In this document: positions 7,820 through 46,417 of the stretch, in pieces
Numbering within the stretch: position 1 is the stretch's first letter
Layout of the letters: each line of letters begins with the position of its first letter
Position numbers and translations under genes: made by a program
Source: Halorubrum hochsteinianum
GTDB lineage: Archaea > Halobacteriota > Halobacteria > Halobacteriales > Haloferacaceae
Direction of reading: 5' to 3'
NCBI RefSeq assembly: GCF_023702125.1
Contig: NZ_CP098415.1
Location: forward strand, 992,001 to 1,056,000
Length of the DNA stretch: 64,000 nucleotides
Notes under the pieces: model-generated
What the model saw: the letters and a program-made list of their open reading frames with translations, nothing else
Databases searched by the model: none
What the model was told of the DNA's origin: nothing

Positions 7820-8067
7820 CGGTGGCGCGTGCCTCCGAGCGTGCCGCCGAAGGCGGCCGCGAGGAGCACGCGCGAGGGAGTCGGCGGCGACCACCGGGAG
7901 CCGCCGACGAGGCTGGGGAGGTGTGAGGTGCGGTCGCGGTCGGGTGGGACTCGAAGGGGCAGTCGCGAGGGAGTCAGAGGCGACGCAAGCACCGCAGGAA
8001 CGAGCGGAGCGAGTGACGAGGAGCGCAGCAAGCGTCTGACTCCCTCGCGACTGGGGCTTCGGCGGTC
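7820..8067 (+). repeat. Structured dispersed element, copy A (~248 nt)
   Basis: Noncoding element with three nested hairpin arms and a conserved core, also found at 22111 and 46170. Arm 1: 7825-7832 pairs with 7866-7873 (GCGCGTGC/GCACGCGC) around an inner hairpin 7843-7848/7852-7857. Arm 2: 7880-7888/7900-7908 (GTCGGCGGC/GCCGCCGAC). A conserved single-strand core follows (about 7906-7959, beginning GACGAGGCTGGGGAGG). Arm 3: 7960-7978 pairs perfectly with 8035-8053 (19 bp). It is extended by a symmetric GGG/GGG internal loop and CGAAG/CTTCG (7952-7956/8057-8061). Orientation is arbitrary. No ORF, transposase or target-site duplication is visible. The arms differ from copy C yet remain paired. 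Confidence 0.75.
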
Positions 8068-8175
8068 ACAGTTGTGACCAGATCAGCAGCGTATAGCCGA
8101 GCGACTGGGGCTTCGGCGGTCACAGTTGTGACCAGATCAGCAGCGTATAGCCGAGCGACTGGGGCTTCGGCGGTC
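8047..8175 (+). repeat. 54-bp tandem repeat amplifying the end of copy A
   Basis: The terminal segment of structured copy A (gcgactggggcttcggcg) recurs at 8047, 8101 and 8155. This gives two full 54-bp units and a 21-bp partial third that are essentially identical. Each unit holds a 7-bp palindrome with a 2-nt centre (GGTCACA gt TGTGACC). The unit is 18 codons long, so it stays open in one frame, but no start or gene context supports coding. It lies just downstream of rnz, which is transcribed leftward from 9158 to 8229. Confidence 0.8.
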
Positions 8176-8228
8176 TCGGCCACGGGACCAGCCGTCGAAC
8201 GTCGGTTCTCCCCGACGTAGTCGCCGTC

Positions 8229-11720: not shown

Positions 11721-11781
11721 TCGGGCGGCGCGGGACCGACGACGGCAGCGGAACCGGCGGCGCGGAGGCCCGACCGCGCCG

Positions 11782-12093
11782 TCACCGCGGAAGTCGGGTC
11801 CAGTCCCCCGGCGGCCCCTCCGGGGACGGGTCAGCGTAGCCGAGCGCGTCGAGGACCGCCTTCCGGACGTCCCGCGGCTCCCGGAACTGCGTCTCCTCGC
11901 AGTCTTCGAGCAGGCGGGCGAACCGCTCGGTCGCCGCCGTCGTCTCCAGTTCAGCGCCGCCGTACTGCTCTATCAGTTCCGCGGCCGTCACCGGATACCG
12001 ATGCTCGCGGAGCGCCCGCTTCAGCGGACCGAACGACACGTTCGGATCCCGGTCCGGCCCCTCCGAACCGCGTTCCGTGTTGTCATTGGTCAT
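11782..12093 (-). CDS. Small haloarchaeal protein, DUF5789-like
   Basis: 103 residues. The middle part (SFGPLKRALREHRYPVTAAE, LIEQYGGAELE) resembles the haloarchaeal DUF5789 family, in which a short winged-helix-like unit carries a Tyr-Pro and an E(A/Q)YG pattern. The assignment is from memory of the family, not a search. The gene converges with the ABC transporter (61 bp between stops) and diverges from the creatininase gene. Function unknown. Confidence 0.72.
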   Translation of the reverse strand: MTNDNTERGSEGPDRDPNVSFGPLKRALREHRYPVTAAELIEQYGGAELETTAATERFARLLEDCEETQFREPRDVRKAVLDALGYADPSPEGPPGDWTRLPR

Positions 12094-22010: not shown

Positions 22011-22110
22011 GGGAGTATCAAGGGGCCGAGACGCCTAATTCCTCCCGGTCGACGCGGGGAACTGGACGTTCGTCGGGTTTCGCAGACCGACTGCGACCGA
22101 CCTGCCTGCG

Positions 22111-22313
22111 GTGGCGCGTGCCGACGAGCGCCCTGATAAGGGCGCGAGTCGCACGCGCGAGGGAGTCGCGAGCGGTTGGGCGACCGGAGGGAGCCCAGAG
22201 CGAGCGACAGGGCGAGAGCGGAGCTCTCGCTTGAAACCGGACGTAGTCCGGTGACGAGGCTGGGGAGGCGTGAGGTGCGGTCGCGGTGCGGGGCGGGACT
22301 CGAAGGGACGACC
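22111..22313 (+). repeat. Structured dispersed element, copy B (3' arm missing)
   Basis: Second copy of the element at 7820 and 46170. Arm 1: 22114-22121/22151-22158 with the same outer pairing GCGCGTGC/GCACGCGC. The inner hairpin has a different sequence, GCGCCCT (22128-22134) with AGGGCGC (22139-22145). In place of the simple arm 2 there is a longer branched insertion with two perfect hairpins: GCGAGAGC/GCTCTCGC (22212-22219/22223-22230) and ACCGGAC/GTCCGGT (22236-22242/22246-22252). The conserved core (22253-22307) is intact, but the long arm 3 is absent. The rest of the 22011-22474 gap shows nothing recognisable. Confidence 0.7.
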
Positions 22314-42068: not shown

Positions 42069-42141
42069 GCCCGGATGGTGTAGTGGCCCATCATACGACC
42101 CTGTCACGGTCGTGACGCGGGTTCAAATCCCGCTCCGGGCG
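42069..42141 (+). tRNA. tRNA-Asp (GTC)
   Basis: 73-nt cloverleaf. The acceptor GCCCGGA (42069-42075) pairs with TCCGGGC (42134-42140), with discriminator G. The anticodon arm CGACC-CTGTCAC-GGTCG gives GTC. The T arm is GCGGGTTCAAATCCCGC. CCA is not encoded. It is followed by a CCCCGTTTCGGGG hairpin before the second, identical gene. Confidence 0.97.
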
Positions 42142-42170: not shown

Positions 42171-42243
42171 GCCCGGATGGTGTAGTGGCCCATCATACGA
42201 CCCTGTCACGGTCGTGACGCGGGTTCAAATCCCGCTCCGGGCG
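42171..42243 (+). tRNA. tRNA-Asp (GTC), second identical copy
   Basis: Same 73-nt sequence as the gene at 42069 and the same GTC anticodon. It lies 29 nt downstream, so both are probably cut from one transcript. Its 3' end is the template for the tail copies at 42365 and 42570. Confidence 0.97.
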
Positions 42244-45911: not shown

Positions 45912-45984
45912 GTCCTGATAGGGTAGTGGACTATCCTCTTGGCTTGCGGAGCCAGGGACCGGAGTTCAAATCTCCGTCAGGACG
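45912..45984 (+). tRNA. tRNA-Arg (GCG)
   Basis: 73-nt cloverleaf. GTCCTGA (45912-45918) pairs with TCAGGAC (45977-45983), with discriminator G at 45984. The anticodon arm TTGGC-TTGCGGA-GCCAG gives GCG. The T arm is CGGAGTTCAAATCTCCG. CCA is not encoded. Upstream CTTAAGTTCTACCGCGGTACG holds a TATA-like element at about 45881-45886. Confidence 0.96.
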
Positions 45985-45992
45985 TTCACTTT

Positions 45993-46080
45993 GCGGCTGT
46001 CTCACTCCGTTCGATAGCCGCTGCGTTCAGTCCTGACGTGCCCTGCGCTCGCTTCGCTCGCGCAGGACTCCGTCAGGACG
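45993..46080 (+). repeat. tRNA-Arg tail palindrome with spacer hairpin
   Basis: After the tRNA a hairpin GCGGCT (45993-45998)/AGCCGC (46016-46021) is followed by GTCCTGACG (46030-46038), which is the inverse complement of CGTCAGGAC (46071-46079). The right arm, with ctc in front, is a copy of the tRNA-Arg 3' end (CTCCGTCAGGACG). Inside is CCTGCGC/GCGCAGG with a gctcgcttcgctcgc loop. This is the same plan as at tRNA-Asp, but with this tRNA's own sequence. Confidence 0.7.
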
Positions 46081-46169: not shown

Positions 46170-46417
46170 CGGTGGCGCGTGCCTGCGAGCGGCCGGCAGG
46201 CCGCGAGTCAGCACGCGCGAGGGAGTCGGCGGCGACCATCGGGAGCCGCCGACGAGGCTGGGGAGGTATGAGGTGCGGTCGCCGTGCGGGGCGGGACTCG
46301 AAGGGGCAGTCGGGAGGCGGACGCGGGGGACGTAAGCACCGCAGCGAGGGAGCGGAAGCGACCGACCGAGGAGCGCAACGAGCGTGCGTCCGCCTCCCGA
46401 CTGGGGCTTCGGCGGTC
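46170..46417 (+). repeat. Structured dispersed element, copy C (~248 nt)
   Basis: Same plan and length as copy A. Arm 1: 46175-46182/46211-46218 (GCGCGTGC/GCACGCGC) with inner hairpin GCGGCC (46189-46194)/GGCCGC (46199-46204). Arm 2: 46225-46233/46245-46253. Conserved core: about 46251-46306. Arm 3: CAGTCGGGAGGCGGACGC (46307-46324) with its perfect complement 46386-46403. GGG/GGG and CGAAG/CTTCG flank it. Arm 3 differs from copy A at several positions on both strands, with pairing kept. It ends 59 bp before the antiporter stop. Confidence 0.75.

Follow-up and report, generated by a model that had tools for sequence, protein, structure and literature searches.

A previously undescribed family of non-coding, self-folding interspersed repeats centred on Halorubrum

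We describe a previously undescribed family of non-coding, self-folding interspersed repeats centred on the haloarchaeal genus Halorubrum. The fold is real and maintained, because its stems change sequence from copy to copy yet stay complementary. The explanation that we favour, and to which we give about half of our confidence, is a chromosome-restricted, non-autonomous family of DNA repeats that folds as a single strand, spread long ago and is kept by turnover at the level of whole hairpins.

Results

The repeat is abundant in Halorubrum and patchy elsewhere

We analysed a 64-kb stretch of the Halorubrum hochsteinianum genome (hereafter the window), which spans positions 992001-1056000 of a 2.96-Mb contig; the genome totals 3.06 Mb and includes a second contig of 101 kb. 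A sequence-only reading had reported a structured element of about 248 nt occurring three times, as copies A, B and C. Reading the sequence placed all three where that report had put them, and a profile built from 29 copies gave exactly three matches within the window. As a total, three was mistaken: it is the window's share only of about 127 copies in the genome. The core CGAGGCTGGGGAGGNNTGAGG matched the genome 127 times at up to two mismatches (0-1 for the reversed pattern) and 128 times at up to three (1 for the reversed-pattern control), and BLASTN with copy A returned at least 42 matches in the same genome. The copy-level analyses below cover about 109 of the roughly 127 own copies.

All 35 sampled Halorubrum genomes contain the repeat, at 16-195 copies each, and core matches occur in 76 of the 292 genomes of the class Halobacteria. 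Outside Halorubrum the distribution is patchy: two genera of the same family have 58 and 128 matches, one genus from another family has 0-142 core matches, and lone matches in other genomes may be due to chance. Relatives in other genera retain P1, GCGAGGGA, P2 and the core, and carry a different 3' arm. In one haloarchaeal genome (G161), at least six head-to-tail copies of a 16-bp core motif (TGAGGCTGGGGAGGTT) lie at 123162-123262 of contig C3.

As the sequence-only reading had stated, the copies encode no ORF, no transposase adjoins them, and the element is not a recognised RNA family: an Rfam search found no family above the gathering cut-off, and a relaxed E-value added only chance, miRNA-like matches far below it. 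No description of the family was found in the open-access literature, a search mostly outside subscription journals that is not proof of novelty.

Anatomy of the repeat unit

From 5' to 3', the unit consists of a border between GC and GGTGGCGCG, P1, GCGAGGGA, P2, the core GAGGCTGGGGAGGYGTGAGG, a G-rich linker, the arm CGAAG-GGG-P4-GGG-CTTCG and the tail units, and measures about 250 nt plus tail units, or about 400-450 nt altogether. P1 is an outer arm with a variable inner hairpin, and the outer-arm pairs covary (GTGCC/GGCAC versus GCGCC/GGCGC in other copies). P2 is a variable hairpin mostly closed by GTCG/CGAC, with a different closing set in other copies. Per-position conservation over 225 cores revealed an invariant, unpaired and G-rich core; the G tracts are likewise invariant, including GGGG opposite GGG in P4. 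The tail is built of units of 51-63 nt that end in GCCGAGCGACTGGGG and are frequently identical tandem copies inside one locus. An AT-rich box (46-57% AT versus about 32%) lies 8-21 nt upstream of the 5' border, and a second lies about 35 nt inside many tails. Palindromes are present near the termini, and terminal inverted repeats are absent, the 5' border (GC followed by GGTGG) and the tail end not being mutually inverted.

Copy A is a full structured unit, P1-P2-core-P4, on the plus strand at 7821-8062, recovered by sequence, BLASTN, fold and profile search. Its P1 (7825-7873) comprises the outer arm GCGCGTGC/GCACGCGC at 7825-7832/7866-7873 and the inner hairpin GCCGCC GAA GGCGGC at 7843-7857. 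The P2 hairpin GTCGGCGGC..GCCGCCGAC (7880-7908), defined by sequence, fold and covariation, is followed by the conserved, unpaired, G-rich core GAGGCTGGGGAGGTGTGAGG at 7909-7928, identified by genome-wide core matches and per-position conservation. The P4 long arm (7952-8061) contains CGAAG/CTTCG, the GGG/GGG internal loop and a 19-bp perfect stem. The limits proposed earlier (7820-8067 for copy A) were right as to place; they need correction at the start, since the 5' border puts the first base of copy A at 7821, and at the end, since its 3' tail runs on in tandem 54-bp units, CTGGGGCTTCGG..GTATAGCCGAGCGA, at about 8053-8190. This tail is absent at empty sites (see below). Tandem units like those 3' of copy A (8053-8190) measure 51-63 bp at other loci (for example L012, L013, L014 and L020); they are identical within a locus and differ among loci, which suggests local slippage or amplification.

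Copy C (46171-46412, plus strand; sequence, BLASTN, fold) is also a full structured unit and lies between a tRNA-Arg gene and the next gene, with its core GAGGCTGGGGAGGTATGAGG at 46254-46273 (sequence, core search) and a P4 long arm with an 18-bp perfect stem at 46299-46411 (sequence, fold). Copy B (22110-22311, plus strand; sequence, fold, profile search) belongs to the family and has the core GAGGCTGGGGAGGCGTGAGG at 22256-22275 (sequence, core search), but the earlier reading of it needs correction: it is truncated, lacks P4 and has two extra nested perfect hairpins at 22210-22252, GCGAGAGC GGA GCTCTCGC and ACCGGAC GTA GTCCGGT. The outer arm and the inner hairpins are present as claimed and form in the computed folds, as do the perfect stems of A and C with their GGG/GGG loop and CGAAG/CTTCG. 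Compared with dinucleotide shuffles, the folds of A, B and C have z = −6.3, −4.0 and −4.5.

Some copies, copy B included, have extra perfect hairpins nested within P1, P2 or P4, usually two together, and the loops of these hairpins run either way round (GGA/TCC, GAA/TTC). The density of perfect hairpins around copies is six times that of the rest of the DNA covered. Together, the nested modules with inverted loops and this enrichment argue for hairpin turnover at the DNA level. A nested two-hairpin module, CACGAGAGC-NNN-GCTCTCGTG ... CAGAACGC-NNN-GCGTTCTG, was seen at a fixed P4 site in several copies, with another form in copy B and in another genus and with loops both ways round; the loci are window positions 22210-22252, L065, L071, L140, L150, L210, L258 and L042.

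The window also holds tRNA features. Repeated tRNA 3'-end fragments (CTCCGTCAGGACG), of which relatives also have a 23-nt copy, lie at 45912-46080, 3' of the tRNA-Arg gene, and resemble what may be integration-site remnants. Two tandem tRNA-Asp (GTC) genes at 42069-42141 and 42171-42243 have equal Rfam scores, and a tRNA-Val (GAC) called by ARAGORN on the minus strand at 11732-11816, unsupported at the Rfam cut-off, is possibly false.

Stems covary and the plus strand folds better

When partners were swapped between copies, pairing fell from 0.85 to 0.72 in P4 (142 distinct arms, z = 22) and from 0.72 to 0.56 in P2 (125 distinct stretches, z = 18.8). Over the first 13 P4 pairs of 78 distinct arms, 96.4% of the cells were paired versus 80.0% after shuffling, 161 cells versus 52 carried a double compensation, and the covariation score was 0.444 versus 0.139 shuffled and 0.03-0.10 slid; none of 500 shuffles reached any of the three values, although sequence kinship among copies inflates the P4 covariation counts. 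Between sister species, 29 positional ortholog pairs showed 27 double Watson-Crick changes, 10 one-sided wobbles and 7 broken pairs. The proposal that compensatory arm changes reflect a fold that is selected or maintained is strongly supported among paralogs and positional orthologs alike, and covariation among homologues is significant by swap, shuffle and slide controls. That proposal had attributed the changes to selection on folded RNA or DNA. The kept fold stands; selection need not be its sole cause, and palindrome repair by template switching or gene conversion may also preserve complementarity.

In each of 90 copies the plus strand gave the more stable fold (mean −150 kcal/mol, versus −127 kcal/mol for the minus strand). 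In P4, G.T mismatches outnumber A.C mismatches 40:13, in cells that are not independent, an asymmetry suggestive of folding by the plus strand. Strand preference, wobble asymmetry, strong covariation and the conserved unpaired core GAGGCTGGGGAGGYGTGAGG all favour a family of plus-strand structured non-coding RNAs, made as 3' extensions or from their own promoters and acting through the G-rich core. We nevertheless regard such a family as doubtful: only about 2% of P4 cells are wobble pairs, a low share for a structural RNA, Rfam has no match, and copy number varies from 16 to 195 among congeners.

Copies occupy conserved intergenic positions

With genes predicted by a simple codon model, the copies lie in intergenic DNA between 56 co-directional, 29 convergent and 9 divergent gene pairs, and only 3 copies fall inside a predicted ORF. 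In 53 of 94 copies the left gene points into the element, so sense readthrough would yield RNA for about half of the copies; in the other 41 it points away, and the left AT-rich box is unchanged whichever way that gene is directed. No promoter is correctly distanced from the 5' border. The left box, centred at about −15, was rejected as the element's own promoter, since a start directed by it would fall within P1. A minus-strand promoter in the tail, where the box is 35 nt from GGGG and about 26 nt from the edge, fits 16 of 73 copies and was likewise rejected, as it conflicts with the wobble asymmetry. Both the orientation of copies relative to genes and the want of a correctly placed promoter weaken the RNA reading.

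Element positions are conserved between species, which counts in favour of an RNA. At least 55 of the 70 H. tebenquichense copies have a positional ortholog among the about 109 of 127 own copies covered, which is near full sharing. Identity between these orthologous elements is 79-100% (median 89%); about ten pairs reach 95-100%, and most H. tebenquichense orthologs are no closer than some paralog. Most sites are common to both species, with arm sequences swapped in place. In one case, nearly all close species and four more distant ones share an element located after the same gene, with arms that differ from species to species. Many species have the element of the copy C locus flanked by the same tRNA-Arg and the same gene; in the comparison with H. 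tebenquichense, identity is 97.5% for that gene and only 77% for the element. The copy A locus, which adjoins a ribonuclease Z gene, holds the element in six named species and several further strains; in H. ezzemoulense and H. coriense the whole structured unit and its tail are missing, leaving an empty site. No target duplication was found at these two empty sites, which may be losses or sites that were never filled.

Replicon distribution and mobility partners

The 101-kb second contig has no copy of the repeat versus about 4 expected. Only four of 72,556 plasmid records match, from Halorubrum (one record) and Halobaculum, and phage records gave no match. Three Halorubrum plasmids of ~0.71 Mb in all contain one partial match versus ~30 expected at own-chromosome density. 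Copies are spaced slightly more evenly than expected at random (CV 0.78 versus 0.98, p = 0.02), an effect caused in part by the genes. These distributions and the invariant G tracts, with GGGG opposite GGG in P4, are what one would look for in a chromosome-organising DNA element whose G-rich core serves as the binding site for a protein of the nucleoid, of replication or of segregation. The GGG/GGG loop, with GGGG and GGG on its flanks, could conceivably make a G-quadruplex in molar potassium, and on this reading the core possibly does so with P4 as a hairpin loop. We consider such an element unlikely: copy number spans a 12-fold range in the genus, there is no strand bias, the regularity of spacing is weak, and the putative role has no known partner protein.

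Still less likely, to our minds very unlikely, is that the repeat is a palindrome-associated IS200/IS605 derivative (PATE) moved by a Y1 transposase, even though palindromes near the ends, the absence of terminal inverted repeats and target duplications, and many diverged copies all fit (PMC3119063). Y1_Tnp (PF01797) had no match in this genome of 127 copies, while the control, Haloferax volcanii, was positive; Y1 number and repeat copy number were uncorrelated over 35 Halorubrum genomes (rho = −0.14); and no copy lay within about 1.5 kb of the genome's four TnpB genes in the fetched flanks. IS200/IS605 mobilisation was rejected on the first two counts and a TnpB omega-RNA on the third. Three of the four TnpB (PF07282) genes are on the 101-kb contig (C2), which lacks the repeat. 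A MITE fails for want of terminal inverted repeats and of target-site duplications at the empty sites, and a REP/BIME element with its RAYT fails because the genome has no Y1-type gene. The idea that the copies are ends of a known insertion sequence with target duplications is unsupported by all of this.

Discussion

Our preferred reading of the repeat as a DNA family would work as follows. The element would fold as a single strand, with plus-strand P1, P2 and P4 around the G-rich core. Its spread would have occurred long ago, so that sites are now mostly inherited. Hairpins would turn over as whole complementary units, which ectopic gene conversion or template switching would replace, flip or rewrite; the template-switch step is suggested by the pattern, and selection would act against unpaired arms through the pairing of one strand. 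Three parts of this picture are inferences: the folding of DNA rather than RNA, the way in which hairpins are replaced, and the route of past spread. Against this DNA reading, no mobilising enzyme was found, and it is unusual for a mobile element to be all but missing from plasmids and phages. A functional RNA or a protein-binding site would equally be expected to keep its positions and to have an invariant unpaired core, and the plus-strand tolerance of wobble (G.T:A.C) is expected of RNA, with the cells non-independent. A tentative alternative, which we rate clearly below the preferred reading, is a genus-wide family of chromosomal elements with a conserved G-rich core that would work in folded form, as RNA or extruded DNA, and be needed by the cell, while a hairpin-copying process would rewrite their stems fast in place and preserve complementarity.

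The large bacterial RNAs OLE, GOLLD and ROOL share with the repeat a large covarying structure, but they occur at few copies per genome, and the repeat has no Rfam match. Bacterial REP/BIME elements are intergenic palindromes near gene 3' ends with stable positions and concerted evolution, like the Halorubrum repeat. REPs measure 20-40 nt and the repeat about 250 nt with P1, P2, P4 and tail; RAYTs are Y1 proteins, of which this genome has none. REP elements are the subject of a survey (PMC3733652).

The PATEs of Haloquadratum walsbyi (Dyall-Smith et al. 2011, PMC3119063) are likewise non-coding, dispersed, high in copy number and hairpin-bearing near their ends, and both families lack terminal inverted repeats and target duplications. 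PATE ends match IS605-type transposons (PMC3119063), whereas the genome with the Halorubrum repeat lacks a Y1 transposase and no matching IS was found; the repeat further differs in its conserved internal core, its three compensating hairpins and its near lack of plasmid copies. The family is PATE- or BIME-like in appearance, yet on our preferred reading it is not a PATE member, and the Y1-transposase test failed for both. SMR-A and SMR-B of Haloquadratum are also small repeats without transposase or target duplications, with an unexplained mechanism; they have terminal inverted repeats, measure about 80-110 bp, are highly alike mutually and target other mobile elements (PMC3119063), whereas the Halorubrum repeat has neither such ends nor such a length. 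Repeated G-quadruplex motifs in Methanomicrobiaceae are archaeal, intergenic and G-rich beside hairpin potential as well, but differ in sequence and clade, and their survey found abundant repeats of this type in that methanogen family only (PMC8044849).

Neither Rfam nor the literature searched includes this very abundant structured repeat, of which a haloarchaeal genome can have as many as about 195 core copies. Hairpins swapped or rewritten in place at orthologous sites of sister species offer a natural test case for asking if covariation must reflect selection on RNA or if, in polyploid archaea, gene conversion and the repair of palindromes can also produce it. Plasmids almost lack the repeat, which prompts the question whether it has a role on the chromosome; its restriction to one class of replicon and its slightly regular spacing hint at such a role.
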